From Dyella acidiphila (GTDB lineage Bacteria; Pseudomonadota; Gammaproteobacteria; Xanthomonadales; Rhodanobacteraceae): a DNA stretch of 64,000 nt. Under the pieces are notes generated by a model that saw nothing but the letters and a program-made list of their open reading frames with translations, ran no database searches and was not told the origin of the DNA. The stretch covers positions 248,001-312,000 of the forward strand of contig NZ_JACZZA010000008.1 of the NCBI RefSeq assembly GCF_014863405.1. Reading direction: 5' to 3'. The position numbers and the translations under genes are program-made. Positions 23,108 through 61,370 of the stretch are shown here, one piece after another. How positions within the stretch are numbered: position 1 is the stretch's first letter; each line of letters begins with the position of its first letter.

Positions 23108-24441
23108 CCGCGCATCGCCCTGGCAACGCGTATTCGGCGATCTCCGCGCGGGTCAGCTACCTGGCCCTGCAGCATCCGCATAGCCGGCCGTGGTGGTTGG
23201 CCATGATCGTTGCGCTGTTGCTCAGCGGCTGGTTTGTGGTCGGCGTGATTGTCCTGCTTGCCAGGGGCGTGGGGATCTGGGGCATCGATATTCCGGTGGC
23301 GTGGGCGTTTGCGATCACCGACTACGTGTGGTGGATCGCGATCGGCATGGCGGGCACCTTTATTTCCGCCGCGTTGTTCCTGACCCGGCAGAGCTGGCGT
23401 TCGTCGCTGAATCGCTATGCCGAAGCGATGACCGTGTTCGCGGTATCGGTATCCGGCCTGTTCCCGATTTTCCATCTCGGGCGTCCGTGGTTTTTCTACT
23501 GGCTGGCGCCGTATCCCAACCGCATGGATGTATGGCCGCAGTGGCGCAGTGCGCTGGTGTGGGATTTCTTCGCCATCCTTGCTTACCTGCTGGTATCGAT
23601 CATGTATTGGTATGTCGGCCTGATTCCGGACCTGGCGACCCTGCGCGACCGCGCCGCCACACGCGGCAAGCAGGTGTTCTACGGATTGCTGGCGCTCGGC
23701 TGGCGCGGCGAGGCACGGCATTGGCAGCGCTTTGAAAGTCTCAGCCTGATCTTGGCCGGGTTGGCGGTGCCGCTGGTGTTTTCGGTGCACAGCATGGTCG
23801 CGCTGGATTTCTCGGAAGGCATGCTGCCGGGCTGGCACTCCACCATCTTCCCGCCGTTCTTTGTCGGCGGCGCGTTCTTTTCCGGGTTTGCGATGGCGCT
23901 GGTGCTGGGCATTCCGTTGCGTTACTGGTTCGGCCTGCAGGACTTCATCACCGACACCCATCTCGACAAGCTGGCGAAGATGATGCTGGCCGCGGGGCTG
24001 TTCGTCGATTACGGCTATGCCGTCGATATCTTCATGGCGTACTACAGCGGCGACCGTTACGAAATCGCCGGCATCGCCGCACGCCTTGGCGGCGCCTATG
24101 GCTGGGTGTTCTGGACGGTGGTGGCCTGCAATGTAATGTCGATCCAGTTGCTGTGGTCGCCACGCATCCGCCGCATGCCGGTGGTGGTGTTCGTGATCGG
24201 CCTGCTGGTGCTGGTCGGCATGTGGCTGGAGCGTTTCATGCTGATTGTCGGCAGTCTCTACCACGGCTACCTGCCGTCCAGTCACGGCATGTTCTATCCG
24301 ACACAGTGGGATATCGCTTTCCTGGCCGGTTCGATGGGTCTGTTCCTGCTGATGTTCCTGCTGTTTATCCGCTGGCTGCCGGTGCTGTCGATGGTGGAAC
24401 TGCGCAAGCTGGCGACGCCGGAAGAGGGCGCCGGCTCATGA
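23104..24441 (+). CDS. actC: Alternative complex III quinol-binding membrane subunit (NrfD/PsrC type)
   Basis: A 445-residue integral membrane protein with about ten hydrophobic segments, of the NrfD/PsrC family. Typical features are the early WWIAIGMAGTFISAALFL helix, the loop HLGRPWFFYWLAPYPN and MVALDFSEGMLPGWHST. In ACIII it binds and oxidises quinol together with ActB. Start and stop overlap both neighbours by four bases (ATGA), implying translational coupling. The length is normal. Confidence 0.95.
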   Translation: MTAHRPGNAYSAISARVSYLALQHPHSRPWWLAMIVALLLSGWFVVGVIVLLARGVGIWGIDIPVAWAFAITDYVWWIAIGMAGTFISAALFLTRQSWRSSLNRYAEAMTVFAVSVSGLFPIFHLGRPWFFYWLAPYPNRMDVWPQWRSALVWDFFAILAYLLVSIMYWYVGLIPDLATLRDRAATRGKQVFYGLLALGWRGEARHWQRFESLSLILAGLAVPLVFSVHSMVALDFSEGMLPGWHSTIFPPFFVGGAFFSGFAMALVLGIPLRYWFGLQDFITDTHLDKLAKMMLAAGLFVDYGYAVDIFMAYYSGDRYEIAGIAARLGGAYGWVFWTVVACNVMSIQLLWSPRIRRMPVVVFVIGLLVLVGMWLERFMLIVGSLYHGYLPSSHGMFYPTQWDIAFLAGSMGLFLLMFLLFIRWLPVLSMVELRKLATPEEGAGS

Positions 24442-24974
24442 GCGACAAAGTCGAACATTACGGTTGCATGGCGCTGTTCGGCACCGGCAGCGCGCTGATC
24501 GAAGCCGTGCGCACTCTGCAGGCGCGGGGCTATCGCGAGCTTGAAGTCTATACACCGTGCAAGCTGGATGAACTGGATCGCCTGTTACAGCCACCGTCCC
24601 ACCGCGTGGCATGGGCAGCGTTTGCCGGTGGCGCGATCGGCGGCATCGGCACGCTGGCGTTGGAGTACTACGCCGCCGTCATCAGCTATCCGATCCGCGT
24701 CGGCGGGCGCCCGTTTGCCAGCTGGCCGGCGTTTATTCCGCCTGCGCTTGAAATGACTTTCCTGTTTGCTGCCGGCGCTGCCGTACTTGCGATGTTGATC
24801 GGCAACCGGCTGCCGCAGTGGTATCACCCGGTGTTCCATGTCGAACGATTTGTGCGGGTGAGCCAGGATGAATTTGCCCTGGTGGTGAACGCGCAATCCG
24901 GCGAAGACACCGAGCACATCCTCGGCCTGCTGCGTTCGCTGCATCCGCTGAGCATCGACCAGGTGCCGCGATGA
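24438..24974 (+). CDS. actD: Alternative complex III subunit D (DUF3341)
   Basis: A 178-residue protein starting at the ATG overlapping the actC stop. The N-terminus is a small alpha/beta domain (GCMALFGTGSALIEAVRTLQ, GYRELEVYTP); two hydrophobic helices follow (AAFAGGAIGGIGTLALEYY and FLFAAGAAVLAMLIG), then a soluble end with DTEHILGLLRSL. This matches ActD/DUF3341, a membrane-anchored subunit of unclear role. An in-frame opening reaches back to 24153, but it lies inside actC. The next gene, actE, overlaps by four bases. Confidence 0.93.
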   Translation: MSDKVEHYGCMALFGTGSALIEAVRTLQARGYRELEVYTPCKLDELDRLLQPPSHRVAWAAFAGGAIGGIGTLALEYYAAVISYPIRVGGRPFASWPAFIPPALEMTFLFAAGAAVLAMLIGNRLPQWYHPVFHVERFVRVSQDEFALVVNAQSGEDTEHILGLLRSLHPLSIDQVPR

Positions 24975-25582
24975 AGGCGCGACATGTCGCCGTATGGTTC
25001 GCGCTATTGTCGCTGGCTGCCTGCGAGCGCGGCATGCACAACATGTACGACCAGCCGTATTACCGGCCCGGTGCGCCGAGCCAACTGTTTGCCGATGGCA
25101 ACGCGAGCAGAAGGCCGCCGTGGGGCACGGTGGCCGCAGCGAGCGGTAGTGCGGCGGCGACCTCGAGTGGACGCAGAACGGAAACCGCCGCTGCATATCA
25201 ACTTACGGATGCCGGCAGCTATCTCGCCCTGTTGCAGCGTGGCCGGCAACGCTACGACATCTATTGCGCGGCCTGTCACGGCCTGTCCGGAGCAGGCGAT
25301 GGCATGGTGGTACAGCGCGGCTTTCCCGCGCCGTTGCCGTTTACCGATCCGTCGATCATGCAGGCGAGCGATGCCGGGCTTGCGCAGGCAATCCAGCGCG
25401 GCTACGGCGTGATGTATCCCTTTGCCGATCGCGTCAACCAGGGCGATGGACAGGCGATCGTTGCCTATATCCGCGCCTTGCAGCTGAGCCAGCATGTCAC
25501 CGTCTCGCAACTGCAGCCGCGTGATGTGGTCGCCCTGCATGCAGCGGGCGTGCCCGCGCAGCATGGAGGTGGGCGAGAGTGA
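24971..25582 (+). CDS. actE: Alternative complex III monoheme cytochrome c lipoprotein
   Basis: A 203-residue lipoprotein: the signal ends in lipobox SLAAC (Cys 18). A linker rich in Ala, Ser and Thr is followed by a class I cytochrome c domain with CAACH near residue 99 and a distal Met ligand candidate in GYGVMYPFADRV. ActE carries electrons from the pentaheme subunit toward the oxidase. ATGA overlaps join it to actD and actF. Confidence 0.93.
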   Translation: MKARHVAVWFALLSLAACERGMHNMYDQPYYRPGAPSQLFADGNASRRPPWGTVAAASGSAAATSSGRRTETAAAYQLTDAGSYLALLQRGRQRYDIYCAACHGLSGAGDGMVVQRGFPAPLPFTDPSIMQASDAGLAQAIQRGYGVMYPFADRVNQGDGQAIVAYIRALQLSQHVTVSQLQPRDVVALHAAGVPAQHGGGRE

Positions 25583-26655
25583 AGCAGGTTGTGCAGGCGT
25601 CAAGCATGGCGGGCAGGGTTTTCGCGTGGCTGATTCCCGTGGCCCTGATTGTGATCGGCTTTCTACTCTCGCATCGCCATCTGCAGCATGCGCTGCTGAC
25701 GTATCTCGCGTGCTGGCTGTTTGTGCTGGCGGTGACGCTTGGCAGTGTTTCGCTGTTGCTGATCCATGCATTGACCGGCGGCGGATGGGGCGATTGCCTG
25801 CGCGCCGAGTGGCTGGCGGCAGCGCGGTTGTTTCCATGGGTGGCGGTGGCGGCGATTCCCTTGTTGCTGGGCATGCATACGCTGTTTCCGTGGCTGCAGG
25901 CGGATGTCGCCAGGATCGATCCGGATATCGCGCGACAGTGCTGGTATCTGAATGCCACCGGCTTGTGGTGCCGGACCTTGATCGACTTCCTCCTGTGGTA
26001 CGGCATCGTGCGCATGCTGCTGCGCCGGGATGCGCAGATATCTGCTGGCTTCGCGGCTGGCAGCTTGCTGCTGATGGTGATTACGGTGTCGGTGCTGGCA
26101 GTGGACTGGGTGATGTCGCTGGTGCCGCGCTGGCATTCCACCGATATCGGCTTGCTGGTCTTCAGCAGCCAGTTGCTGGTTGCGTTTGCCTTGTCGACCG
26201 GTATCTGGCTGGGCAGGCAGCCGGCATCCGGTACGCGCCTGCATCGTGACTTCGGCAGTCTGTTGCTGGCGATGGTGCTGGGCTGGGCGTATGTGAGCTT
26301 TATGGATTACCTCACCGCGTGGGTTGCCGATCAGCCGTCGGAAACAGCGTGGTATCTGCCGCGGGTGACGACGGATTGGCAGGGCGTGGCGATCGCGCTG
26401 GTGATACTCGGTCTGGTGATTCCATTCTTCACCTTGCTGTCCGGCCGGGCGAAGTCATCCGCGCGTGTACTGATCGTCATCGCCGCGGTCACTTTCCTTG
26501 CACAAGGCATCAACACGGCGTGGCTGATCCTGCCCGGGGTGATGGCAAAAGGCACCGCACCGGCATGGAGTGATCTGTTTCTGTGCGCCGGTCTGCTTGG
26601 ACTGTGCGCGATGCGCTATCGCGTATTGCTGATCACTGAAAGGCAGACTGCATGA
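25579..26655 (+). CDS. actF: Alternative complex III membrane subunit F
   Basis: A 358-residue membrane protein with about ten hydrophobic helices and the ActF signature segments AVDWVMSLVPRWHSTDIGLL and DYLTAWVADQPSE. ActF is the second NrfD-related membrane subunit of ACIII. Here it is somewhat short relative to some ActF proteins but has no internal break. A GTG codon starts the frame at 25579, overlapping the actE stop by four bases (GTGA). Confidence 0.9.
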   Translation: MKQVVQASSMAGRVFAWLIPVALIVIGFLLSHRHLQHALLTYLACWLFVLAVTLGSVSLLLIHALTGGGWGDCLRAEWLAAARLFPWVAVAAIPLLLGMHTLFPWLQADVARIDPDIARQCWYLNATGLWCRTLIDFLLWYGIVRMLLRRDAQISAGFAAGSLLLMVITVSVLAVDWVMSLVPRWHSTDIGLLVFSSQLLVAFALSTGIWLGRQPASGTRLHRDFGSLLLAMVLGWAYVSFMDYLTAWVADQPSETAWYLPRVTTDWQGVAIALVILGLVIPFFTLLSGRAKSSARVLIVIAAVTFLAQGINTAWLILPGVMAKGTAPAWSDLFLCAGLLGLCAMRYRVLLITERQTA

Positions 26656-27014
26656 ACGCCCGGCGCCACGAGCAGGATGGTACGGACACGCTGGCGCTGT
26701 TCCGGCTGGGCGCGGTGTTCGTGGTGCTGCTGGTGCTGATCCTGGCCGCGATGTACGCGTTGTGGCAGCGTGTGTTGCCACGTTATCCGCCGATACCGGC
26801 GAAGGACATCCCGTCATCCCCGCGCCTGCAGGCGGTGCCCCCCGTGGATCGCATCACCTTGTACCGCGTGCAGCACACGCAGCTTGAAAGCTACGGCTGG
26901 ATCGATCCGTCGAAAGGGACCGCGCACATCCCGATCGAGCGGGCGATGACACTGCTGGCCGCACAGAAAACCAGCCCGGCTGCATCCGCGCCGAATGACG
27001 GAGCCCATCCATGA
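26652..27014 (+). CDS. Membrane-anchored protein of unknown function in the ACIII/cox operon
   Basis: A 120-residue protein. One helix (LGAVFVVLLVLILAAMYALW, about 19-38) is followed by a periplasmic tail with RITLYRVQHTQLESYGWID and IPIERAMTLLAAQ. The latter segment is like the sequence found in proteins encoded between ActF and Sco in other ACIII operons (family memory, not tested). It overlaps actF and sco by four bases each. A possible role is assembly or heme/copper delivery to the oxidase (inference). Confidence 0.75.
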   Translation: MNARRHEQDGTDTLALFRLGAVFVVLLVLILAAMYALWQRVLPRYPPIPAKDIPSSPRLQAVPPVDRITLYRVQHTQLESYGWIDPSKGTAHIPIERAMTLLAAQKTSPAASAPNDGAHP

Positions 27015-27808
27015 AACGATGCTTGCTGATCCTCGCCATGCTGTTCGCGCAGGTAACGGTGGCGTATGCAGCGGCACCACCGCCGCCGCGCGACTTGCTC
27101 AATCGCGTCGGCATACAGCAGCAGCTCGGCGCGCAATTGCCCATGGATGCAGTCTTTACGGATGCGAATGGACAAACCGCACCGCTGTCGCACTGGATCG
27201 ATGACCGTCCCGTCGTACTGATGCCGGGCTACTTCAGCTGCCCCAATCTCTGCGATACGACCCTGCAGGCGATGGCGTACTCGCTGGACCTGGCCGGTTT
27301 GCAGCCGGGCAAGGATGTGAGCGTGATTTTCCTGAGCATCGACCCTTCCGAATCCGCTGCCGACGCAACCAAGAAGCAACAGAAGCTGGCGCTGATGAAA
27401 GGCAATAACGGTGTCGGTGCATGGCATTTTCTGGTGGGAAGCGAAGCGTCAATCCAGGCGGTGACCCACGCGGCAGGCTATCGCTACGTCTACGATGCAA
27501 AGCTCAAGCAATACGCGCATCCGGCCGGAGCGATCGTGGCGCGTGGCGACGGCCGCATCAATCAATACCTGCTGGGTGTGAGCTACGCGCCGCAAACCCT
27601 GCGCCAGGACGTGGCGGCAGCCTCGCGGCATACGCTGGGCAGTCTGGTGGATCAGCTGGTGCTGCTGTGCTGCGGCTACGATCCCACCACCGGCCGCCAT
27701 ACGATCACCGTGGTACGTGTGATGCAGTGGCTCGGCGTAGGTTTCCTCAGCCTGCTGGTGCTGGTATTCGCCGTGCTGCGCCGGCCCGGCCGCAAGGCAC
27801 CCACATGA
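27011..27808 (+). CDS. sco: SCO1/SenC-type copper chaperone for cytochrome oxidase
   Basis: A 265-residue exported protein. A signal peptide (LLILAMLFAQVTVAYA) precedes a thioredoxin-like domain with the copper-binding pair CPNLC (about 77-81), FLSIDPSES, and the downstream His in YAHPAGAI. A C-terminal membrane helix (MQWLGVGFLSLLVLVFAVL) then anchors it, which is less common than the N-terminal anchor of Sco1. It delivers copper to the CuA site of subunit II, encoded next. Overlaps of four bases on both sides show coupling with the oxidase genes. Confidence 0.93.
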   Translation: MKRCLLILAMLFAQVTVAYAAAPPPPRDLLNRVGIQQQLGAQLPMDAVFTDANGQTAPLSHWIDDRPVVLMPGYFSCPNLCDTTLQAMAYSLDLAGLQPGKDVSVIFLSIDPSESAADATKKQQKLALMKGNNGVGAWHFLVGSEASIQAVTHAAGYRYVYDAKLKQYAHPAGAIVARGDGRINQYLLGVSYAPQTLRQDVAAASRHTLGSLVDQLVLLCCGYDPTTGRHTITVVRVMQWLGVGFLSLLVLVFAVLRRPGRKAPT

Positions 27809-28761
27809 GCGTCGTGCGGTTGCCGCAGGCGTCGAGTTTCGCACCCTCGATCGATCATATGTTCGATGCGATGGTGATTCTCTGCGGCGTGGTCGCGATC
27901 GGCGTGTTCGCGGTGATGATTGGCATGTGCATCGTCTACCGGCGTGGCAGCAAGGCGGATCGCAGCATTCCGGTTGCGCAGCAGATGGGTATCGAGCTGG
28001 CCTGGACCCTGATTCCGTTCCTGCTGTTCGTCGGCATTTTTGCCTGGAGCATCCGTCTGTGGGTGCATCTGCGTTCACCCCCGGCGGACAGCCTCACCAT
28101 CTATGTCGTCGCCAAACAGTGGATGTGGAAAGTGCAGCATCCGGACGGGCGGCGCGAGATCGATGCGCTGCATGTTCCGCTTGGGAAGCCGGTGCGCCTG
28201 ATCATGACTTCGGAAGACGTGGTGCACAGCTTTTACATCCCTGCCTTCCGCATCAAGCAGGACGTGGTGCCGGGGCGGTATACCCAGCTCTGGTTCAAGG
28301 CGACGCAGGCCGGCAATTTCCAGCTGTATTGCTCTGAATACTGCGGCACCAACCATGCCGCCATGCTCGGCACGGTCTCGGTGCTGCCGGCCAGTGACTA
28401 TGCGCGCTGGCTGGTCTCGGTCACGGCGATGACGCCGGAACAGCGCGGACGTCAGTTGTTTGTGCAGATGGGATGCAGCGGTTGCCACGATCCGCAATCC
28501 GGCATTCGAGCGCCTGACTTGCATGGCCTCTACAACATGCCGGTGCATCTGAACGACGGCACGGTGGTGCAGGCGGACGATGCCTACCTGCGCGAATCCA
28601 TCGTGTTTCCGGCCAGCAAGATCGTGCAGGGCTACACGCCGATCATGCCGACATATCAGCATCGCGTCGACGAGGAAGGCATCCTCGCCCTGATCGCCTA
28701 TATCCGTTCGATCGGTCCGGCGCCGCCTGCCGCAAGCCAGGACAGGAGTTCTCATGACTGA
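27805..28761 (+). CDS. coxB: Cytochrome c oxidase subunit II with fused cytochrome c (caa3 type)
   Basis: A 318-residue subunit starting at the ATG overlapping the sco stop. Two membrane helices ([38 protein letters not shown]) are followed by the CuA domain with QWMWKVQHP and the ligand set [12 protein letters not shown], then a C-terminal cytochrome c with CSGCH (about 230). The fused heme marks a caa3 oxidase fed directly by ACIII or by ActE. There is no clear signal peptide beyond helix 1. It overlaps coxA by eight bases. Confidence 0.95.
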
Positions 28762-30379
28762 TGTTTTCGTGCGCGACAGTCCGCTGCGCCGCAGCTATCT
28801 GTGGCAGGGCGGACATACGCTTCGTTCGTGGCTGCTCAGCACCGACCACAAGCGCATCGCGCTGCTGTACGCCGCATCCATCACGTTGTTCTTCTTTCTG
28901 GGCGCAGTCGCCGCCGCATTGATGCGCCTGACCCTGATCGACCCGCAAGGTCGCCTGATGTCGGCGGAAACCTATAACAAGACCTTCACCTTCCATGGCG
29001 TGGTGATGGTGTGGTTCTTCTTGATTCCGTCGATTCCCGCCACGCTGGGCAATTTCCTGGTGCCGCTGATGGTCGGCGCGCGCGACCTGGCGTTTCCGCG
29101 GCTGAATCTTTTCAGCTGGTACCTCTACATGGTGGGCGGACTGTTCACCATCGCCTGCCTGCTGCTCGGCGGTGTGGATACGGGTTGGACCTTCTACACA
29201 CCGTTTTCGACCATGTTCTCCGATTCGCATGTGATCCTGGCGGTGGTCGGCGTGTTCGTGGTGGGGTTTTCCTCCATCCTCACCGGGCTCAATTTCATCG
29301 TCACCATCCATACCATGCGCGCACCGGGCATGCATTGGTATCGGTTGCCGCTGTTTATCTGGGGCATCTACGCCACCAGCATCGTGATGATGCTGGCCAC
29401 GCCGGTGCTGGCGATGACCTTGTGCCTGATCGGGCTGGAGCGCCTGTTCGGGGTCGGCATCTTCGATCCCTCCCTGGGCGGTGACCCGGTGCTGTTCCAG
29501 CATTTTTTCTGGTTCTACTCGCATCCGGCGGTGTACATCATGATCCTGCCGGCGATGGGCGTGGTCAGCGAGCTGATCTGTTGCGGTGCGCGGCGGCGCA
29601 TCTTCGGCTATCGCTTCATGACCTGGTCGCTGCTGGGGATCGCGTTTATCGGCTTCCTGGTATGGGGACACCACATGTTCGTAGCCGGGCAATCGATGTA
29701 CGCCAGCATGGCGTTTTCGATCCTCAGTTTCATCGTGGCGGTGCCGTCGGCGATCAAGGTGTTCAACTGGGTGTCCACGCTTTATCGCGGCACCATCGAT
29801 TTCCACGCGCCGATGCTCTACGCGCTGGGCTTTATCGGCCTGTTCATGCTCGGCGGACTCACCGGCCTGTTCCTGGCGGCGGTGGCGCTGGATGTGAACC
29901 TTACCGACACCTACTTCGTGGTCGCGCATTTCCACTACATCATGGTCGGCGGCTCGGTGATGGCGTATCTCGGCGGCATCCATTTCTGGTGGCCGAAAAT
30001 CACCGGCCGGCTGTATTCGGAACGGATGGCACAGCTCGCCGCCGTGCTGATGTTCATCGGCTTCAATCTCACCTTCTTCCCGCAATACCTGCTGGGCTAT
30101 ATGGGCATGCCGCGCCGGTATCACCAATATCCGCCGCAGTTCCATGCGCTGAATGTGCTGTCGTCGATCGGTGCGGTAGTGTTGGCGATTTCCTATCTGA
30201 TGCCGCTGTTCTATTTCGCGCGTTCGCTGCGCAGCGGTGCATCCGCGGGTCCGAATCCCTGGCAGGCCGCCGGCCTGGAATGGATGACCTCGTCGCCGCC
30301 ACCGGAGCACAACTTCGTGGAGACGCCGGTGGTCACCGAAGGGCCGTATGCGTATCACGAGCATGAAGAGCAGGCATGA
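28754..30379 (+). CDS. coxA: Cytochrome c oxidase subunit I
   Basis: A 541-residue heme-copper oxidase core with 12 or more helices. Low-spin heme ligand His lies in [10 protein letters not shown]; the CuB His-Tyr region is [15 protein letters not shown], with WGHHMF for the paired CuB His, and [11 protein letters not shown] for heme ligands. It reduces O2 to water and pumps protons. The order II-I-III-IV and the tight overlaps fit caa3 operons. Length is normal. Confidence 0.97.
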
Positions 30380-31014
30380 ACGCGCACCTGGCCGAGCACT
30401 TCGACGATCCGCCGCAACAGAAAGAAGCGGCCATGCTCGGCATGTGGGCGTTTATCGCCACCGAAGTGCTGTTCTTCGGCGTGCTGCTGGCGGCCTACAT
30501 CGTGTGCCGCTGGCGCTTTCCGGCCGGATTTGCCGATGGCAGCAGGCACACCGACCTGTTGCTGGGCAGTATCGAGACGGCCGTGCTGCTGGCCAGCGGC
30601 TGCATCATGGCGGTCGGCCTGCGTGAAATCCAGCTGGCGAAACAGCGCTCGGCGTGCCTGGCGATTGTCATCACCGCTGCGCTCGGCGTGGCGTTCCTGG
30701 TGCTGCATGGCATGGAGTACGTGGATGAATACCACGAAGGGCTGATTCCCACCGTGCGCTATCTGCAGAACGGCACGGATGCGGATTCCATGGAAGTCTT
30801 CTTCTGCCTTTACTACGTCATTACCGGTCTGCACAGCCTGCACGTGCTGATCGGCGTGGTATTGCTGCTGGTGATCGCGGAACGCACCCGACGTGGTCAC
30901 TTCTCCCCGCATTACTACACGCCGCTGGAAATCGCCGGCCTGTATTGGAGCCTGGTGGATATCGTCTGGATCTTTGTCTACCCCGGCATCTACCTGGCGG
31001 GACATTCGGCATGA
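30376..31014 (+). CDS. coxC: Cytochrome c oxidase subunit III
   Basis: A 212-residue membrane protein with five predicted helices and the subunit III motifs [31 protein letters not shown]-type region (here [10 protein letters not shown]) and the C-terminal [14 protein letters not shown]. It stabilises subunit I. ATGA overlaps join it to coxA and the subunit IV gene. Five-helix subunits III are usual for caa3-type enzymes. Confidence 0.95.
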
Positions 31015-36262: not shown

Positions 36263-37384
36263 TCATGCGGCGACTAAGTAGCGGTCCACATCTTTTTGCT
36301 TGAGTGTCATGCCGAGGCCGGGCTGTTCGGCATCCACGGTGAGCGCGCCTCCGGCGAGCACGGGCAGCCCATCGAAGAAGATGGCTTCAATACGGGCGTG
36401 ATCGTAGAAGTATTCAACATGATCAAGCTGACCGACACTGCTGCAGACGTGGGCGTGCAAATGAGGCGAGCAATGCGCTGAAACGGGTATGTGATAACCC
36501 TCCGCTAGCGCGGCGGCTTTGATGAATCCCGTAAAGCCGCCGCAACGTGTGCTGTCGATCTGCAGCACGTCCACGGCTTCGTGTGCAAGCATTCGTCGGA
36601 AGTAGTCGGTATCCCAGCCATATTCGCCGGCGGCGACCTGCATACCGCCAGGCACATGGTCGCGAATCCAGCGCAGGCCTTCCAGGTCATCGGAAGATAC
36701 GGGTTCTTCCAGCCAGGAAACATCGTGGTGGGCGAATGTTTCGGCCATGGCGACGGCCTGCTCGCGGGTGTAGGCGCCGTTGGCATCCACCATCAGGCTG
36801 GTGTCTTTGCCGATCGCTTCGCGCACCGCGGCTACGCGTTGTGGATCTTCTTCCGGAGTGGTGCCAACCTTCATCTTGACGCGGGTAAAGCCCTGGTTGG
36901 CGAAGCGGCTGAGCTGGTTCTGCAGCAAGGTGATGTCGTAGGAGGTGAATCCGCCGCTGCCATACAGTGGAATTTTTTCGCGCGCGCGCCCCATCAGGTG
37001 CACCACGGAGACACCGAGCATGCGCGCCTTGAGATCCCACAATGCGTGATCGACTGCGGAAATGGCCATTAGTCCGGTGCCGGGCCGACCGATATTGCGC
37101 AGACTGCGATTCATATCCATCCACAACGTCGGGATGTCCATCGGGCTGGCGCCGACCAGGCACTCGCGCAATGGTGCGGCAATGATGGACGCAGCGGCGC
37201 GATGCGCGTAGCTATAGCCCATGCCCTCATAGCCCCCACAACGAATGGTGGCGAGGATTACGGTAGTTGCGTTCCAGGCCAATGTTCCATCGGCTTCCGG
37301 ATAGTCGGTGGGAACATCGTAAACCCGCACTTGCACGTCATTGATGCGGCTTTCGGCATGGCGCAAGAGGATGACTGGAGCCAC
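36263..37384 (-). CDS. Enolase-superfamily sugar-acid dehydratase/racemase (MR/MLE group)
   Basis: A 373-residue enzyme. The N-terminal capping domain is followed by a barrel with K170-x-K172 (RVKMKVG), metal ligands D200 (MVDANGAY), E226 (WLEEPVS), E254 (AAGEYGW), and a downstream His near 304 (SAHCSPHLHAHV). This is the mandelate racemase/muconate lactonising layout; dehydration of a sugar acid or epimerisation are the main options. It starts with GTG at 37384, with only a weak purine-rich site. It is first in the operon with the ASRT and SDR genes. Confidence 0.93.
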   Translation of the reverse strand: MAPVILLRHAESRINDVQVRVYDVPTDYPEADGTLAWNATTVILATIRCGGYEGMGYSYAHRAAASIIAAPLRECLVGASPMDIPTLWMDMNRSLRNIGRPGTGLMAISAVDHALWDLKARMLGVSVVHLMGRAREKIPLYGSGGFTSYDITLLQNQLSRFANQGFTRVKMKVGTTPEEDPQRVAAVREAIGKDTSLMVDANGAYTREQAVAMAETFAHHDVSWLEEPVSSDDLEGLRWIRDHVPGGMQVAAGEYGWDTDYFRRMLAHEAVDVLQIDSTRCGGFTGFIKAAALAEGYHIPVSAHCSPHLHAHVCSSVGQLDHVEYFYDHARIEAIFFDGLPVLAGGALTVDAEQPGLGMTLKQKDVDRYLVAA

Positions 37385-37596
37385 GTGCTTTCTCGTCCGG
37401 GTAATGGGTGGACCGTGGGTAGCTTGTGACCAAGTGGATCGGAAGCAGGTGAAGAAATCATCGCCGTCGTGTTTATCCCGCTATTGACGGCTTGCCAGGT
37501 GAATTGCTCTTTCCCCCGCGTGAGCTCGGGCCTGTGCTGCTGTTCCGCAGTTCAGTCGCTCTTAGGTGGAGGTATTCTTCAACACGATGTAAGTCG

Positions 37597-39297
37597 TCAT
37601 GACATCTTCTTCTGAGGCCGACGATCAAGCTCACCTCGCCCCGCCAAAGCCGCTATGCGATCAGCCGTACGCAACGCGATCGCTTGAATGGTCAAAGAAG
37701 GATTGACGCCACCGACCGTGGGGAACACCGAGCCATCGCAGATCCACAAGTTGGGGATATCCCAGCTGCGGCAGTCACCATCCACGACGCTGCAACGTGG
37801 ATCGTCGCCCATCCGCGCAGTGCCGTTCAAATGGCAGGTGTCGTTGGTTTCCTCCCAGATATCCCCGACACCGGCTGCATCGAGCGCGCGCCCCATGAAA
37901 TCCAGCGCATGCCTGATAAGACGTTTGTCGTTGTCACAGAAGGAATAGGTCACGCGAGCGATCGGCAATCCGTTGGCATCTTTCTCGTCCGCCAGGGTGA
38001 CGCGGTTCCGCTCTTGCGGAAGAGTCTCGCCGACGATCTTCAATCCCACCTGATGGTTGTAGTGTTGCATTTCATCCAATAACGCCTGTCCCCACAGGCC
38101 ACGGCGATTGAGCGCGCCGGCCCAGACGATCGGCAAGGGGCCTTGGCTCATATAGCTGTATCCGCCGAAGAAATCCTTGCCAATATCGGTGTAGTTCCAG
38201 TGCTCGGTGATGGCGAGGGAAGGCGGCCCCTTATAGGCGCGGATTTCTTCCGGCATCACCCCCCAGACGGCCTGGTTGGATTGCACCATCAGGTTTTTAC
38301 CCAGCAGTCCTGAGCTGTTGCCAAGCCCGTCGGGAAACCGACTGGTGGCGGACAGCAGCAAGAGGCGAGGTGTTTCGATCGCATAGCCGGCGACCACTAC
38401 ATGGCGCGCACGCTGAAATTGGCGCTGTCCTTCGCGGATGTATTCCAGCCCGGTAACGCGGTCGTTGTTGCCCACAGCGATGCGGGTCACCATGGCCAAG
38501 TCGCGAATTTCAGCACCGGCGGCCACCGCACGCGGAATCCATGTCACCAGTGCGCTCTGCTTGGCATTGGTCGCGCAGCCTGAGACGCAGAAGCCACGAT
38601 ACACGCATGGCGGGGAATGCCCCCGTGGTGCGGACACGGTGGCCAATGGCGTAGACGTCCAGTCGATACCCAATGCTTCGGCGCCGCGGGCCAACACCCA
38701 GGCGGCGGCATTGAGCTCGTGTTCGCGATAGGGATAGCGCGGCCGTTTAGGGCCCCAGGGGTACTTCAGCGGCCCAGAAATTTTCAGGGCTTGCTCGACC
38801 TGCGTGTAGTAGTGCCACATTTCGCGCCAATCCAGCGGCCAATCAGCGCCGTAGCCAAGCAGGCTACGCGACTTGAACCATTCCGGCCGGAACCGCAGCG
38901 AGACCATCGCGAAGTGCACCGTGCTGCCGCCGATCGCCTTGCCGCTGTTATTGGTGCCTAACACCAGCGGTGTTTCACCATCGCAAAGGCGCTCATCGGT
39001 CCAGAATAACTTCTTCTGATGCGACTCATCCGAGGCAAACTCCTCCAAGGGCCGCCACCATGCACCCGCATCGAAAGCGACCACACGGAACCCCAGTTCT
39101 GATAACCGGCATGCCAGTGTGCCGCCGCCGGCACCCGTGCCGACGATGGCAAAATCGACGTCATCGTCATGTTCAAATTCACGCATCGGCACCCAGCCGC
39201 CGTGACGGAATACATCAGGAGCGCGTCCGTTTTTCCCACGAGGCTCGTCGGTGGCATCAGCGGACACGGTGTTTGCCCCGGCGTGCACGTACCTCAT
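37597..39297 (-). CDS. GMC-family oxidoreductase (gluconate 2-dehydrogenase flavoprotein type)
   Basis: A 566-residue FAD enzyme: dinucleotide motif IVGTGAGGGTLACRLSE, GSTVHFAMVSLR, a Cys-rich loop YRGFCVSGCATNAK, and the C-terminal CHLNGTARMG plus VGGVNPSLTIQAIA with the catalytic His and Asn. It should oxidise an alcohol, aldose or sugar acid and pass electrons to a membrane partner. I start it at the ATG at 39297, which lies inside the preceding gene by 41 bases; the frame is open further upstream. No signal peptide is seen; partner subunit 3 may carry export, or the reaction is cytoplasmic. Confidence 0.92.
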   Translation of the reverse strand: MRYVHAGANTVSADATDEPRGKNGRAPDVFRHGGWVPMREFEHDDDVDFAIVGTGAGGGTLACRLSELGFRVVAFDAGAWWRPLEEFASDESHQKKLFWTDERLCDGETPLVLGTNNSGKAIGGSTVHFAMVSLRFRPEWFKSRSLLGYGADWPLDWREMWHYYTQVEQALKISGPLKYPWGPKRPRYPYREHELNAAAWVLARGAEALGIDWTSTPLATVSAPRGHSPPCVYRGFCVSGCATNAKQSALVTWIPRAVAAGAEIRDLAMVTRIAVGNNDRVTGLEYIREGQRQFQRARHVVVAGYAIETPRLLLLSATSRFPDGLGNSSGLLGKNLMVQSNQAVWGVMPEEIRAYKGPPSLAITEHWNYTDIGKDFFGGYSYMSQGPLPIVWAGALNRRGLWGQALLDEMQHYNHQVGLKIVGETLPQERNRVTLADEKDANGLPIARVTYSFCDNDKRLIRHALDFMGRALDAAGVGDIWEETNDTCHLNGTARMGDDPRCSVVDGDCRSWDIPNLWICDGSVFPTVGGVNPSLTIQAIALRTADRIAALAGRGELDRRPQKKMS

Positions 39298-39898
39298 GAC
39301 CAGGTTTGGCTTCTGCTGCTTCCCAGGGATCGCGGCGGTCAAAATACATACGCACGTAGCCCCGGGGATTGGCCGGACCGCCAAAGCCGATCTGGTTCCA
39401 GGCATAGGGATGCGAATAATAGATCGCGCAAATATCCTTAAGGACGCGATTCGAAAAAAATATGTCGGAGGGCAAACCGTGCCAGGCAGGATGAACCAGT
39501 TCACCGCGCTGCATGCGTTCCAATAAAAGATGGCGCTGTGGCGCGGCAAGGGAATAATACGGTTGGCGAAATGTGGCGATGCTTTCCTCATTGAGCGCCG
39601 CCAATCCGATACGCCAAGCCTGCCGAAGCGGAGGCAGGCGCATGTCGCGGTAGCCATCGCCAGCATTTGTGCGCAAGCGCTCATCGAGCATGGCGGCGAC
39701 CGGAATTTGCGCCGCTTCCGGGGATTGCGGCATGACGCTTTCGCATACTGCCTGGAGGGTTTGCCATGCCAGTGGATCCAGGAAGCGAGATTCTGACGGT
39801 GGCGCCATGCGCTGCTTAATGACCTCACGCGTGACGTCATCCCAAGAGACAGTGCCGCGTTTGTCCAGTACGTTGTAGCCGGGATAACGGGCCTTCAT
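39257..39898 (-). CDS. Gluconate 2-dehydrogenase subunit 3-family protein
   Basis: A 213-residue protein with the subunit 3 pattern: FLDPLAWQTLQAVCESVMPQ, a helical middle (AALNEESIATF) and HPYAWNQIGFGGPANPRGY near the end. It pairs with the GMC flavoprotein encoded next. The usual Tat signal of periplasmic homologues is absent here. The ATG at 39898 overlaps the stop of the upstream membrane-protein gene by four bases. The frame opens upstream, but that part is antiparallel shadow of the preceding gene. Confidence 0.88.
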   Translation of the reverse strand: MKARYPGYNVLDKRGTVSWDDVTREVIKQRMAPPSESRFLDPLAWQTLQAVCESVMPQSPEAAQIPVAAMLDERLRTNAGDGYRDMRLPPLRQAWRIGLAALNEESIATFRQPYYSLAAPQRHLLLERMQRGELVHPAWHGLPSDIFFSNRVLKDICAIYYSHPYAWNQIGFGGPANPRGYVRMYFDRRDPWEAAEAKPGHEVRARRGKHRVR

Positions 39899-40824
39899 GA
39901 CTCCGCTTTCTCCAGTCGCAGTGCCGCAATCCCTGCCATAGCCAGTGCAGTGAGGCTTGGCGGCGCGGGCAGCGGTGGCCCACTGAGCAGGTTTTGGCTC
40001 CAATTACGCCACCCGCCTTGACTGCGTGCGACACCACGAGCATGAAACAGTACCCCGATGACACCTAGCCATTGAGCTGCAAGCAAAGCGATGCGTGCCG
40101 CCCAGTGCGGTTTGCGGCGCACGGCTGCAGCATGGATCAGCAAGGTTGCTGCAGCGGGTGCCAGCAACACCGGTGCATACATCGCGCGATGCTGAAACGA
40201 ACCCCTCAAGTGCAGTAAGCCCACTTCGCCAGCGGTACCCAACAGCCCTGCAGCACATAGGAGGGCTGTGGACTGCCAAGCAGGCAAGCCAAGTAGGCGC
40301 GGCTGCACGGCCGGCTTCTCTCTCATACGTTCTGCTACATCTCCGAACACTCCTGACAACAGCAGGGCCATGGGGGCACCGATGGGAGCGGCATAAAACA
40401 GATTGTTCCAGCACCACCCGCCCGGGCGCTTGCCGATGTTGTAGCAATGAAATGCAGTGCCCGCGATACCGATGCCGGCAGCACTCCAATAAATGGCATG
40501 CCGCACGACGTGGCGCCTGGGGCGCGAGTCACCGCTGCTATGAATACCTGCCATCAGTGCACACAACGAAGACGCCAGGGGCAAAGTCATCGCAGGATTC
40601 GTAAACGAACCGCGATAGTGTTCCATCGCACTGTCAGCCAATACTGACCAGGCTAATAACGACGAACTACGGGTGAACGAATGGGCGGCCTTAAGCTGCC
40701 CCGGCGCTTGCATGCACTTACGGGTTTTATGGTGCAGAAATGTTCTGTCTCGATGGTACAGAGCCGCGATCGCCAGCCCTCCGGCGACAATGCAGCTCAA
40801 CCCAAACACCTGCTTACGCTTCAT
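39895..40824 (-). CDS. Two-repeat membrane protein with conserved His triads
   Basis: A 309-residue membrane protein of unknown family. It is built of two homologous halves. Half 1 has MEHYRGSF (H69), AGIH (H95) and TAFHCYNIG (H126); half 2 has LLHLRGSF (H204), LLIH (H230) and VLFHARGVA (H260). Spacing of the His is 26/31 and 26/30, and a GGW motif follows each last His. About eight hydrophobic segments are predicted. It heads the operon with the subunit-3 and GMC genes, where other bacteria have a cytochrome c subunit, so it may be the electron acceptor or membrane anchor (inference). Confidence 0.75.
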   Translation of the reverse strand: MKRKQVFGLSCIVAGGLAIAALYHRDRTFLHHKTRKCMQAPGQLKAAHSFTRSSSLLAWSVLADSAMEHYRGSFTNPAMTLPLASSLCALMAGIHSSGDSRPRRHVVRHAIYWSAAGIGIAGTAFHCYNIGKRPGGWCWNNLFYAAPIGAPMALLLSGVFGDVAERMREKPAVQPRLLGLPAWQSTALLCAAGLLGTAGEVGLLHLRGSFQHRAMYAPVLLAPAAATLLIHAAAVRRKPHWAARIALLAAQWLGVIGVLFHARGVARSQGGWRNWSQNLLSGPPLPAPPSLTALAMAGIAALRLEKAES

Positions 40825-43537: not shown

Positions 43538-44803
43538 ATGGCGCAGAGGAGTGAAAGGAAGGCTTGCCATGATGCCGGGCGCCGCCCGCCATGTCGCGCA
43601 CCCCATCGCTCAGCTATGGCTGAGCTGGAACGCTCTCTGGCGCGCACGCACTGCAACATGACGGCGCGCCGTCATCCGCAGCCTCATATTGTCATCGCCA
43701 TTCCGGTATGCAATGAAGTGGAGCGTATCGTGGCCTGCATGGAGGCGATCGAGGCGCAGGACGATGGACACAATACTGCGTGGACGGCAGGGATCGTGCG
43801 GTCGGTACTCTTGACGAATAGCTGTACTGACGGAACCTATGAATTGCTGCTCAGGCATACGGCGCGCTGGCACATGGCGACGACCGTCTATGATGTTACG
43901 TTGCCGCGAACACTTCGCAATGCAGGTCACGCCCGCTGGCTGGCCAACCATGCGGCACTGGATCTTCTTCCTGCACGCGGCGGCATGTTATTCATGACCG
44001 ACGCTGACAGCATTGTGCCACCCAACTGGGTCGCCAACTATGTGTCCTTGCTACGCGCCGGTTACGATGCGGTGATCGGCAGGGTGGATCTGTGCGAGGA
44101 AGACTGCACCGATTTGCCAGCAAGTCTTCGTGGTCGCTGTGAGCACGAGGAACGCTATATCGCGTTGCTTGATGAGTTGGAATGCTTGCTGGATCCGGTT
44201 CCTGATGATCCCTGGCCGAGACACTACAGTGCGTCGGGTGCGAATGTCGCGCTACGCACCGAGGTTCTCACTGCCATTGGTGACTTCCCGCGCGTAGCCT
44301 GTCACGAAGACAAATGCCTAGCCCGAGCACTGGAGGTGCAGGGCTGCCGTGTCCGCCATGATGACCTCACGCGGGTACACACTTCAGGACGACTCTTTGG
44401 GCGTGCGGCGGGGGGAATGGCCGATACGCTGCGGCTTCGCTCGCGTCAGCCACATTCGCCTTGTGATGAGCGTCTGGAGCTCGCGGACCGAGCGCATATC
44501 CGCGCTCACCTTCGCGGCACGCTGCGAACGGCTTACACCGCAGGCGTGCCTTCTTTCTGCACACTTATGGGCATCTTCGAGGACTTCGCTCTTGACGTAC
44601 CAGATTGGCTGGAACGGTCCATTGTTCATCCGTTTCCCGCATTCTGGGCACTCTTGGAGCAACGCCATCCAAGTCTGAGTCGCGAAGCCATGCGGCCGGA
44701 ACAGTTATCTGGCGAAATTGAGCGCGCAAAGCATCTTTTGAATGCCGTACGGCACCACCGAATGCAGCCGGCCTCGGTCATGGCCGAAGAGCACATCGCA
44801 TGA
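43538..44803 (+). CDS. Family 2 glycosyltransferase
   Basis: A 421-residue soluble GT2 (GT-A fold). IVIAIPVCNE starts the domain, NSCTDGTYELL is the nucleotide-sugar site, and TDADSIVPPNWV is the DXD-type motif. The acceptor part includes HYSASGANVALR and CHEDKCLARALE. There are no membrane helices. The start is uncertain: 43538 has GAGGA before it, but the 40 residues before MTARRHPQ look atypical; the ATG at 43658 is the alternative. It is the first gene of the four-gene cluster with overlapping stops and starts. Confidence 0.85.
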   Translation: MAQRSERKACHDAGRRPPCRAPHRSAMAELERSLARTHCNMTARRHPQPHIVIAIPVCNEVERIVACMEAIEAQDDGHNTAWTAGIVRSVLLTNSCTDGTYELLLRHTARWHMATTVYDVTLPRTLRNAGHARWLANHAALDLLPARGGMLFMTDADSIVPPNWVANYVSLLRAGYDAVIGRVDLCEEDCTDLPASLRGRCEHEERYIALLDELECLLDPVPDDPWPRHYSASGANVALRTEVLTAIGDFPRVACHEDKCLARALEVQGCRVRHDDLTRVHTSGRLFGRAAGGMADTLRLRSRQPHSPCDERLELADRAHIRAHLRGTLRTAYTAGVPSFCTLMGIFEDFALDVPDWLERSIVHPFPAFWALLEQRHPSLSREAMRPEQLSGEIERAKHLLNAVRHHRMQPASVMAEEHIA

Positions 44804-45957
44804 GCCCTCGCACGGTTTCTCACAACGAATGTGCGCACTCTCTGAGCGTACTAACTGCCTTACGGCAGCACGCATCTGCACTGGCACAAGCCGCTATTGA
44901 GGACGATGTCACTGAAGCTTTCCCTCATCGCGCGATACGGATACTGGAAAGTGCCGGCTGTTTGCATGCCGTCTTGCCACCTGAGCGAGGAGGGCTTGGC
45001 CTGGGGTGGATGCCGGCTTCCACCCCGTTGTTGCTGGATTTGCTTCGCGCCATGGGCGGCATCCATTTGTCAGCCGCACGCTTGTTCGAGGGTCATGTCA
45101 ATGCATTCGAGCTCCTGTGGACATGCGGCACCCCTGATCAACGAGATGCTGTATGTGCCTATATCAGGCGGGGCGAGTTGCTTGGGGTTTGGAACGCGCC
45201 CTCTTTTCGTGGCGAATTGACGCTCACTACCAACACCAAAGGTAGCTATACGCTGGAGGGTCCCAAGGCATACGCGTCGGGCGCGGGAGGCATCCGCCGG
45301 CCGCTAGTGACGGCCCAACACCCTGAGCTGGGCTTGCTGATAGTGTGGCCGGATTTGCCCTATGAGATAGGTCCGGCGGACGATTGGCTCATGCATGGCA
45401 TGCGCGCATCCATGACCCGGTCCGTGCGCTTTCATGGTGAAGTGGACCACGATCATGTGTTTGGCACGCACGATGACTACCATCGGCAACCTGGCTTCTC
45501 AGGTGGAGCGTGGCGCTTCCTGGCCGCTCAGTTGGGGGCAGGGGAGGCGCTGGTTGAAGGAATGCGTGACAGTCTGGTGCAACGGCGACGTGCCATTGAC
45601 ACATGCCAGCAGCTGCGGATGAGCGAATGCATGGTAGCGCTGGATACCGCCCGCAAGTGGGTCTCGGACGCCGCCGTGTATCTACGCCGTTCCGAATTAT
45701 CTATCGAGGCTATCGTCTGCCATGCGAATGAGGCCCGCATAGTCGTGGAGCGCGCGCTGTTGGACGTGCTTGAACGTGTGCATCGTGGCGTAGGACTACA
45801 AAGCTTTTCACGATCTTCACCGCTGGAGCGGATAGCACGCGACCTGGCCACGTATCTCAGGCAGCCAGCTCCGGATGCGTTGTTAATCGCGGTAGGCGAG
45901 CAGGCCTTCAAGACTCCGTTACCTGGATTGCTGGGCGGCCCTTACGACCATGAATAG
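44800..45957 (+). CDS. Acyl-CoA dehydrogenase-superfamily flavoprotein
   Basis: A 385-residue protein of the acyl-CoA dehydrogenase fold: an N-terminal helical domain, the sheet region GELLGVWNAP, LEGPKAYASGAGG, and the C-terminal four-helix part ending RIARDLATYLRQPAPDALL. I do not see the usual catalytic Glu segment of medium-chain enzymes, and the end looks more like the DszC/monooxygenase branch. It could therefore be an oxygenase or a dehydrogenase acting on an unusual substrate. It overlaps the GT2 gene by four bases and the deacetylase gene by eight. Confidence 0.82.
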   Translation: MSPRTVSHNECAHSLSVLTALRQHASALAQAAIEDDVTEAFPHRAIRILESAGCLHAVLPPERGGLGLGWMPASTPLLLDLLRAMGGIHLSAARLFEGHVNAFELLWTCGTPDQRDAVCAYIRRGELLGVWNAPSFRGELTLTTNTKGSYTLEGPKAYASGAGGIRRPLVTAQHPELGLLIVWPDLPYEIGPADDWLMHGMRASMTRSVRFHGEVDHDHVFGTHDDYHRQPGFSGGAWRFLAAQLGAGEALVEGMRDSLVQRRRAIDTCQQLRMSECMVALDTARKWVSDAAVYLRRSELSIEAIVCHANEARIVVERALLDVLERVHRGVGLQSFSRSSPLERIARDLATYLRQPAPDALLIAVGEQAFKTPLPGLLGGPYDHE

Positions 45958-46684
45958 CTGCGCCGCGCACATCTTGAATACATTTCCATGGCGTGATCCT
46001 GCCCGTATGGCGTTGGACCGCGATGTGCTGGTCGTCGCGCCGCATCCTGACGATGAAAGCCTGGGATGCGGCGGACTTCTTGCATGGGCGGCGGCAACCC
46101 AGCACCGGCCCCGCGTCTTGTTCCTGACTGATGGAGAAAAGTCACATCCCGGCTCAGCCAGCTACCCACCCGAACGATTGGGAAAGGTTCGCCGTAAAGA
46201 GGCGGTGCATGCCTGTGCGACCTTAGGCATGACTCATCATGACGTAACGTTTCTCGGCCTTCCCGACGCGGGACTCGACTCACTGGGCGAGGAAGACTTG
46301 GCCGAATCGGTCGCCGCGATTCGCCACTGGTTATCATGGTCGCCGCGGGCCCTGGTCGGTGTGACGGCAATGACTGATGCGCATGGCGATCACATTGCTG
46401 CGCATCGTTTGGTAAAGGCTGCTTTGGCAGGTCAACAGCAGCATCGGCTATTCGCCTACCCTGTATGGACGTGGCTACAGTCAGGGCATTCTTGTTTATG
46501 GAATACCTATGGATGGCGTGTTGATATTGGATTGTATCGACGCCAGAAGGAAGCAGCCATTGCTTGCCACGCAACGCAGCACGGCCAATTAATCGTCGAC
46601 AGTCCTGATGCTTTCGTACTTCCGCCCGAGCTTCTGAGTCACGTGTGTCGCGGGTACGAGGTCTTGCTTGATGCCCACTTTTGA
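45950..46684 (+). CDS. PIG-L family deacetylase
   Basis: A 244-residue LmbE/PIG-L zinc deacetylase. APHPDDESLGCGG carries the zinc His-Asp-Asp motif; AHGDHIAAH gives the third ligand. Members deacetylate N-acetylglucosamine conjugates (GlcNAc-PI, mycothiol, bacillithiol) and related sugars. It overlaps the flavoprotein gene by 8 bases and the NodS-type methyltransferase gene by 14. A C-terminal remnant of a second copy lies at 58127. The product could be an N-deacetylated sugar lipid or nucleotide sugar (inference). Confidence 0.92.
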   Translation: MNSCAAHILNTFPWRDPARMALDRDVLVVAPHPDDESLGCGGLLAWAAATQHRPRVLFLTDGEKSHPGSASYPPERLGKVRRKEAVHACATLGMTHHDVTFLGLPDAGLDSLGEEDLAESVAAIRHWLSWSPRALVGVTAMTDAHGDHIAAHRLVKAALAGQQQHRLFAYPVWTWLQSGHSCLWNTYGWRVDIGLYRRQKEAAIACHATQHGQLIVDSPDAFVLPPELLSHVCRGYEVLLDAHF

Positions 46685-47231
46685 CCGTGCTTATTTCGAA
46701 GCCCTGTATGCTGCGGAGTCAGATCCTTGGGCTTTTCGCAGTAGTGGCTACGAGCATCATAAGTACAGCGCCACCATCGCAGCGCTCGAGGGTGGGAGAT
46801 TCCAGCGATGTCTGGAGCTCGGTTGCTCCATTGGCGTCTTGACCCGACGCTTGCTGGAGCATTGCGACTATGTTGTGGCGATAGATACCAGTGAACAGGC
46901 TTTGGCCGAAGCGCGCCAATATTGTGTGAGTGACTGCGTGACGTTTCGGCAACTGCATCTTCCCGACGGAGATTTAGGGAGGGGATACGACTTGGTGGTT
47001 GCATCCGAGGTTCTCTATTACTTGGAACGCCCGGCGTTAATACGTCTTTCGCATCACCTGCGGCGTGTGGTGCAAAGGCAAGCACTGCTGCTCGCCGTGC
47101 ACTGGACAGGTACGACGAACTATCCACTCACCGCCGATGAGGCAACCCGGATAGCTTTTGAGGAGACAGGTGCGGAGTGGCTTCATGGTAAGACGGAGCC
47201 CTGTTTCAGGCTTGATGTGGGACGCTTTTGA
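46671..47231 (+). CDS. NodS-type SAM-dependent methyltransferase
   Basis: A 186-residue class I methyltransferase of the NodS family: FDRAYFEALYAAESDPWAF, SAM motif LELGCSIGVLTRRL, acidic VAIDTSEQALAEAR, YDLVVASEVLYYLE and HWTGTTNYPL. NodS N-methylates deacetylated glucosamine in Nod factors. With a deacetylase upstream, an N-methyl amino sugar is a plausible product (inference). The ATG at 46671 overlaps the deacetylase stop by 14 bases, exactly as in the 57.6-58.3 kb copy. It is the last gene of the cluster. Confidence 0.9.
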   Translation: MPTFDRAYFEALYAAESDPWAFRSSGYEHHKYSATIAALEGGRFQRCLELGCSIGVLTRRLLEHCDYVVAIDTSEQALAEARQYCVSDCVTFRQLHLPDGDLGRGYDLVVASEVLYYLERPALIRLSHHLRRVVQRQALLLAVHWTGTTNYPLTADEATRIAFEETGAEWLHGKTEPCFRLDVGRF

Positions 47232-60439: not shown

Positions 60440-60476
60440 AATAAGGTCGGATAAGGTTTACTTATCATACCTAATG
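60440..60476. promoter_or_regulatory. Palindromic operator between recombinase and KfrA-like genes
   Basis: GATAAG (60450-60455) and CTTATC (60461-60466) form a perfect inverted repeat around GTTTA. Extending outward, AATAAGGTCGGATAAG and the reverse complement of CTTATCATACCTAATG match at 12 of 16 positions. It covers the divergent promoters and is the natural binding site for the KfrA-type protein encoded next to it. Confidence 0.6.
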
Positions 60477-60491
60477 AAAGGAGGGCAGGGG

Positions 60492-61370
60492 ATGGCAAGT
60501 GGGGTACCCGAAACCGATGTTTTTAAGGCCGCGGATGCGGTGCTCGCACGGGGTGAACGCCCGACAGTCGAGCGTGTTCGACTGGAACTGGGCCGCGGCA
60601 GCCCAGCGCGCGTGGGTCAATTGCTCGAGCAATGGTGGGAACGTCTGGCTCAACGCTTGAAAGGCCACGCGCTGTTGCCAAACCTGCCGGGCGAGGTGGC
60701 GCAGGCGTTCTCCGACACATGGCGTCTGGCACTCGCCCAGGCGGCCATCGTCGCTCATGCGGCCCTCGCCGAAGAGCAAAATGCTCTCTTCGCGGAACAA
60801 ACGTCGCTGACCCAGGAACGCAAACTCTGGGAGATCGCCCTCACCGAGGCCCAAACGAATATGGCCGAGAGCGCTGCAAAACTTGCACAAGCCGATGCAC
60901 AACTGCGTGAACGGCAGGTGTTGGTGGACCAGTTGGAAGCCCAGCGAACCGACTTGTTGCAGCAACGCGACCGCTTGCAAGAGCAGCTCGGGCGGCAACA
61001 GGTCGAGATGGATGATCTACGGGCCAAACACAATGCAGCACAGGAGCACATTCGCGCCGTGGAAGACCGCGCCCACCAGCAGGTCGACCAAGCGCGCCAG
61101 GAGATCAAGTCGCTACAGCAACGGCTGGAACGGGAGCAACGTGACCACCACAAGCTCGTGACGCAGCTCTCGATGCAGCAGGACGACTTGCGAAATGCGG
61201 TGCGTGCAGCTGAACAGGTGGCCGCACATCAGACCGGCCGGGTGACTGCCTTGGAGGCCACGCTCACCCAGTGGCGGAATCAGGCGCCGCCATCTAAACG
61301 TCAATCACGCAAAGGGGTGCCAGAAGGGAAAGGCAAGCCACGAAATCGAGCGAAGAAGATCCCACCATAA
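60492..61370 (+). CDS. KfrA-like DNA-binding coiled-coil protein
   Basis: A 292-residue protein. The first 90 residues are the KfrA N-terminal DNA-binding domain (DVFKAADAVLARGERPTVER, GRGSPARVGQLLEQWW), and the next 180 form a long coiled coil full of Gln, Glu and Arg (LREQVL-type heptads, QQRDRLQEQLGRQQVEMDDL). A basic tail ends it (RKGVPEGKGKPRNRAKK). KfrA proteins bind their own promoter and occur on plasmids and integrative elements. The ATG at 60492 follows AAAGGAGGGCAGGGG; the ATG at 60474 has no such site. Confidence 0.88.
   Translation: MASGVPETDVFKAADAVLARGERPTVERVRLELGRGSPARVGQLLEQWWERLAQRLKGHALLPNLPGEVAQAFSDTWRLALAQAAIVAHAALAEEQNALFAEQTSLTQERKLWEIALTEAQTNMAESAAKLAQADAQLRERQVLVDQLEAQRTDLLQQRDRLQEQLGRQQVEMDDLRAKHNAAQEHIRAVEDRAHQQVDQARQEIKSLQQRLEREQRDHHKLVTQLSMQQDDLRNAVRAAEQVAAHQTGRVTALEATLTQWRNQAPPSKRQSRKGVPEGKGKPRNRAKKIPP

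Follow-up and report, generated by a model that had tools for sequence, protein, structure and literature searches.

A conserved four-gene operon in Dyella acidiphila encoding a glycosyltransferase, a probable flavin monooxygenase, a PIG-L deacetylase and a NodS-family methyltransferase

Four genes with uninterrupted reading frames were found on the + strand, between positions 43538 and 47231, of a 64,000-nucleotide stretch (the window) of contig NZ_JACZZA010000008.1 from Dyella acidiphila, here called the host. The first (43538-44803) encodes a family 2 glycosyltransferase (GT2) of 421 amino acids with a GT-A fold (PF00535, 30.5 bits; PF13641, 28.6 bits), the second (44800-45957) a flavoprotein of 385 amino acids which resembles acyl-coenzyme A (acyl-CoA) dehydrogenases and is most plausibly a class D-type flavin monooxygenase (PF02771, 24.0 bits), and the third (45950-46684) a PIG-L/LmbE de-N-acetylase of 244 amino acids (PF02585, 97.3 bits). 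The fourth, running from an ATG at 46671 (a TTG at 46668 is possible) to 47231, encodes an S-adenosylmethionine-dependent methyltransferase of the NodS Pfam family (PF05401, 56.0 bits). The matches to PF00535, PF02771, PF02585 and PF05401 all exceed the curated cut-offs, that of the flavoprotein narrowly (cut-off 22.9 bits); its match to PF08028 lies below the cut-off. Successive genes overlap by 4, 8 and 14 bases, and frames, coordinates and families agree with those given in an earlier note on this DNA. A GAGGA sequence is located 6 bases 5' of the GT2 start codon (ATG 43538); because the first approximately 20 residues were modelled with low confidence by AlphaFold2 (AF2), ATG 43616 is a possible alternative start. 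Based on Pfam matches, the cluster lies between an upstream AI-2E transporter gene and a downstream DUF2252 gene, neither of which was found among the 45 listed neighbour clusters of the relatives' loci.

Relatives were sought with the flavoprotein, the most specific member of the cluster, in overlapping genome samples in which the host's own genome was counted where sampled (cut-offs 1e-30 to 1e-20). The flavoprotein is rare near the host, being present in 1 of 61 genomes, the host among them (single-protein search) and in 1 of 16 genomes of the genus (profile search), the latter method revealing one further carrier in the order (G057). Carriers amounted to 7 of 274 and 9 of 369 genomes in the class, 11 of 398 in the phylum and 5 of 289 in another class of the phylum. 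Together, the samples gave 21 different genomes other than the host's, in 15 of which the genes for flavoprotein, PIG-L and methyltransferase are adjacent on one strand. In one more (G788) the contig ends after the PIG-L gene, and in two (G088 and G208) the methyltransferase is present and PIG-L is missing.

A scan of genome contigs revealed at least 560 stretches encoding relatives of the flavoprotein. The best 80 of these and 11 of 46 plasmid records gave 91 loci, 38 non-Methylobacterium and 53 Methylobacterium-labelled. Among the former, PIG-L is nearby in 35, the trio is contiguous in 31 and a GT2 gene occurs within 5 kb in 33, its position relative to the trio being upstream, downstream or convergent; ten loci with only approximately 1.5 kb per side (L015-L024) were excluded from the GT2 counts. 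At eight annotated plasmid loci where the flavoprotein gene is followed by PIG-L, this pair overlaps in seven, and PIG-L and methyltransferase genes overlap in six. The carriers belong to four phyla, include Deinococcus, Nostoc, Roseomonas and Sulfitobacter, and hold the cluster on chromosomes as well as plasmids. Since the gene order is found again at loci from four phyla, the cluster is more than a chance arrangement; the four-gene set is a conserved unit, a small operon. The scattering of the genes which the earlier note had named as a refutation was not seen in the loci examined, Methylobacterium excepted.

The flavoprotein was compared with dehydrogenases in an alignment of 35 rows (34 of the 36 PIG-L-linked loci and the window protein). 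The EGT motif with the catalytic Glu of the dehydrogenases occurs in 0 of 35 rows and YLRQPxPD in 35 of 35, a test that does not extend to the other Glu position, that of isovaleryl-type enzymes. Of the acyl-CoA dehydrogenase loci in the host, L131 and L132 (wrong reading frame) are uninformative and L135 and L136 fell outside the alignment; L130, L133 and L134 could be compared with 12 of the rows. The motif is retained in these enzymes (YEGT in L130 and L133, WEGT in L134) and differs in all 12 aligned rows, in which the TEP-GSD flavin loop and WIT motif of L130 and L133 are also replaced. Among PDB entries, DszC was the top match of the family profile (81.8 bits); methanesulfinate monooxygenase, TdsC and a nitrososynthase (73.2 bits) likewise outscored the first protein plainly called acyl-CoA dehydrogenase (4u83, 66.8 bits). 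Ranks 5 and 6 bear the name "acyl-CoA dehydrogenase type 2 domain protein", one of them being titled a flavin-containing monooxygenase in the structure list. The AF2 model (predicted local distance difference test score, pLDDT, 91.2) gave flavin monooxygenases as 24 of its 25 best Foldseek matches (TdsC, DnmZ, KijD3, DszC, MsuC, MAB_4123 and 5z8t), the remaining one, 5gj7, being titled putative acyl-CoA dehydrogenase. At ranks 26-27 came 3-sulfinopropionyl-CoA desulfinase, a CoA enzyme which shares this fold.

The flavoprotein is closest to the class D flavin monooxygenases DnmZ/KijD3, DszC/TdsC and MsuC, with which it shares the fold, the sequence profile and the lack of the dehydrogenase Glu motif, at approximately 20% identity. 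Based on motif loss, profile and the Foldseek search with the model, it is probably not an acyl-CoA dehydrogenase and rather a flavin monooxygenase, so that the suggestion in the earlier note of an enzyme acting on an acyl part lost ground. A true acyl-CoA or acyl-carrier dehydrogenase altering such a part would account for the N-terminal domain match (PF02771), and acyl-CoA dehydrogenase 2dvl (Foldseek rank 36) equals the monooxygenases by TM-score (0.80/0.83), which makes the fold alone indecisive for the class. Given the motif missing from every row, the replaced loop and WIT motif, and a cluster with neither acyltransferase nor CoA ligase, this assignment is very unlikely.

The GT2 alignment comprised 32 rows (31 of 33 loci and the window protein). 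QxxRW, the motif of processive synthases, was found in 0 of 32 rows. The window GT2 has no strongly hydrophobic stretch, with a maximum 19-residue hydropathy of 1.34, while 7 of the 32 rows, all from other loci, exceed 1.6. Its AF2 model (mean pLDDT 90.8, GT-A fold) matched AvpGT best in Foldseek (E 8.2e-10), followed by ManGT and TarP, with TarS lower and TM-scores low. For PIG-L, 29 rows (28 of 36 loci and the window protein) showed the metal-site motifs DxHxDH in 29 and HPDDE in 25; the window deacetylase combines its PF02585 match with these motifs. The closest named PDB entries to the family profile are sugar deacetylases, the nearest being TT1542 and diacetylchitobiose deacetylase, then the BshB1-type 6p2t. 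The window protein thus shares its family with diacetylchitobiose deacetylase, BshB and MshB, but scores under every NCBIfam cut-off matched. The methyltransferase profile, built from 27 of 35 loci together with L030 and the window protein, matched 4isc best (147.6 bits) and then NodS 3ofj (92.6 bits).

These assignments bear on the resemblance to Nod-factor synthesis which the earlier note had drawn. Its conserved unit, amine-exposing deacetylase family and NodS-family methyltransferase stand; the likeness to the Nod-factor pathway probably does not. A pathway for a lipo-chitooligosaccharide of this kind would use broadly the same enzyme classes as nodC, nodB, nodS and nodA, the methyltransferase does fall in Pfam NodS, and the PIG-L profile is near diacetylchitobiose deacetylase. 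The GT2 proteins, however, lack QxxRW in every row, the deacetylase matches only PF02585 in Pfam and not the NodB family, and the window methyltransferase reaches 55.3 bits against a NodS equivalog cut-off of 300. A search of the host genome for NodA gave no match, as did the same search of control genomes. We know of no nodulation by Deinococcus, Nostoc, Roseomonas or Sulfitobacter, all of which are among the carriers. A Nod-factor-like product is accordingly highly improbable.

Gene fusions were also found. PIG-L and methyltransferase are joined in one open reading frame (ORF) in L104, a Gloeobacterales metagenome-assembled genome, and in L128. On two Deinococcus plasmids (L006 and L008) the flavoprotein carries an N-terminal domain of approximately 400 residues related to GH1. 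This domain has no Pfam match and no PDB sequence match, the label "GH1-like" deriving solely from 25% similarity to an adjacent Pfam GH1 protein in L008. In L053 and L063 the domain has a gene of its own near the cluster, adjoining UDP-galactopyranose mutase, and L063 has a further glycosyltransferase gene. The fusions and GH1-like neighbours tie the flavoprotein to carbohydrate chemistry. Among the 91 loci, catalase was found within the locus in nine (nine genus labels), an RND efflux protein in six (five genus labels) and UDP-galactopyranose mutase in four, and extra GT4, GT2 and GT28-like genes adjoin the cluster in several genera. A GMC gene is located near the Deinococcus cluster, as it is in the window (below).

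A putative counterpart is known from Acinetobacter baumannii, where ACICU_02435-02432 comprise the same four annotated families and are listed as one coregulated operon. In two colistin-dependent mutants, of which one has a disrupted lpxC, its expression fell 31- to 62-fold, as did that of trehalose synthesis genes (PMC5660220). In ACICU_02432-02435 the order is flavoprotein, LmbE, methyltransferase and glycosyltransferase, the last standing at the opposite end from that in the window. Similar annotated sets lie beside blsA in Acinetobacter (PMC6240043) and beside AnBLUF65 and a DUF2171 gene (PMC9020721). A tagP study reports that a DUF2171 gene, katE and trehalose genes fall together, the identity of this DUF2171 gene with the neighbour of AnBLUF65 not being shown (PMC11348943). 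The available portions of PMC5660220, PMC6240043 and PMC9020721 assign no function or product to the operon, and those of PMC8770908, PMC10653896, PMC9657202, PMC10375965 and PMC13130816 establish no tie to the cluster. The Acinetobacter setting suggests that the cluster may serve cells in stationary phase, during drying or under oxidative stress.

Taken with the enzyme families, these observations point to a conserved operon whose product would be a small, modified glycoside or glycoconjugate of an amino sugar, a reading to which we give an even chance. The GT2 would transfer an N-acetylhexosamine to an acceptor, and PIG-L would then strip the acetyl group and free the amine. The flavoprotein, as a flavin-dependent monooxygenase, would oxidise the freed amine or a nearby position, N-hydroxylation as in KijD3/DnmZ being our favoured guess, and the NodS-family enzyme would methylate the oxidised product. 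Extension or trimming of the glycan may fall, in some lineages, to additional glycosyltransferases, UDP-galactopyranose mutase or the GH1-like protein.

The same genes might instead decorate an existing surface polysaccharide or lipopolysaccharide, the GT2 adding a side sugar which the other enzymes adjust, as ordinary envelope variation. This is possible, if doubtful. The GT2 resembles the wall and capsule enzymes TarP, TarS, chondroitin polymerase and WrtF, the adjoining glycosyltransferase and mutase genes would suit such a role, and so would the strong decrease of the Acinetobacter operon in two colistin-dependent mutants, one of them disrupted in lpxC. The annotated or scanned neighbours, which are part of all neighbours, include no gene for a flippase, a polymerase or a lipid carrier, the window GT2 lacks a strongly hydrophobic stretch, and the core trio is constant despite quite different flanks. 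A low-molecular-weight redox cofactor like bacillithiol or mycothiol, for which GT and PIG-L would make a glucosaminyl conjugate to be finished by the other two enzymes for use in oxidative stress, is improbable. PIG-L does match BshB1 (64.9 bits) and BshB2 (50.9 bits), both far below cut-offs, and catalase is near nine of the 91 loci. BshC, however, was not found in the host genome while three controls were positive, the cluster is missing a cysteine ligase-like gene, and its glycosyltransferase is of GT2 and not GT4, the family of BshA and MshA.

Several observations weigh against the amino-sugar reading. The Acinetobacter operon is likened to the window cluster by annotation and gene order alone. 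N-oxygenation is not singled out, because DszC and TdsC rank level with the sugar N-oxygenases, and DnmZ/KijD3-type enzymes use TDP-amino sugars; the cluster shows no gene for such compounds. A flavin reductase is represented in the host by one borderline PF01613 match (27.6 bits against a cut-off of 27; the search covered this reductase family alone), and the annotated neighbours contain no recurrent reductase. With the EcfG (general stress) promoter consensus, matches were found upstream of 6 of 78 alphaproteobacterial clusters in the sense and 6 of 78 in the reverse direction, as compared with 148 of 14,600 random windows (1.0%), so that the signal is not strand-specific. No product or substrate was named in the open-licence literature searched, which excludes most subscription papers; the earlier note, too, knew of no described product. 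Three of the 21 genomes (G733, G793 and G1024) have neither PIG-L nor methyltransferase. For G1024 (77 bits, no partners within approximately 1.5 kb per side) and for Gloeothece L013 (27% identity, no partner genes), both counted as misses, the proteins found are probably other flavoproteins. Finally, deacetylation looks dispensable in Methylobacterium, as 43 of the 53 loci, some on short contigs, lack PIG-L beside the flavoprotein and ten have it. When presence of PIG-L is mapped onto a tree built from 89 flavoproteins, it switches at least four times on well-supported branches, which we tentatively read as repeated loss of PIG-L.

A stand-alone protein similar to the LigD 3'-phosphoesterase is encoded just upstream (within 300 bases) of the flavoprotein in 14 of the 53 Methylobacterium-labelled loci, including L030, L035 and L068 (Pfam run on two). 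In 11 of the 14, those with a GT2 found upstream, it is placed between the GT2 and the flavoprotein. It is not a strict replacement for PIG-L, L068 carrying both. Long LigD-like ORFs occur within approximately 11 kb of the cluster in L005, L049, L082 and L084 (three genera), with LigD and Ku by annotation in L005 and by similarity only in the others, a possible link to DNA end-joining.

The G+C content of the window is 58.4%, as compared with 62-66% in seven loci of 3.4-3.5 kb around the host's own acyl-CoA dehydrogenases. Together with the scarcity of carriers in the genus, this lower value suggests an acquired region. A gene for a KfrA_N protein (DNA-binding, plasmid replication region; 60474-61370, 71.5 bits) hints at an origin from a plasmid or integrated element. 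At 20165-31014 are genes for 4Fe-4S and NrfD proteins and cytochrome c, presumably an alternative complex III, followed by cytochrome oxidase subunits II, I and III. The - strand at 36263-40003 encodes a protein similar to sugar-acid dehydratases, one that matches GMC-type dehydrogenases, and subunit 3 of a gluconate 2-dehydrogenase.

We tentatively propose a stress-linked family of metabolites or glycans, spread over at least four phyla, whose core would be an N-oxidised, methylated amino sugar, with the Methylobacterium lines without PIG-L making a variant. Its flavoprotein has relatives in at least 560 stretches of genome contigs, and widely differing bacteria carry the cluster, on chromosomes and on plasmids. 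In Acinetobacter the annotated set is among strongly coregulated genes, yet its product is absent from the open-licence literature searched. With the "acyl-CoA dehydrogenase" reread as a probable monooxygenase, a vague cluster would become a chain which may be assayed enzyme by enzyme.

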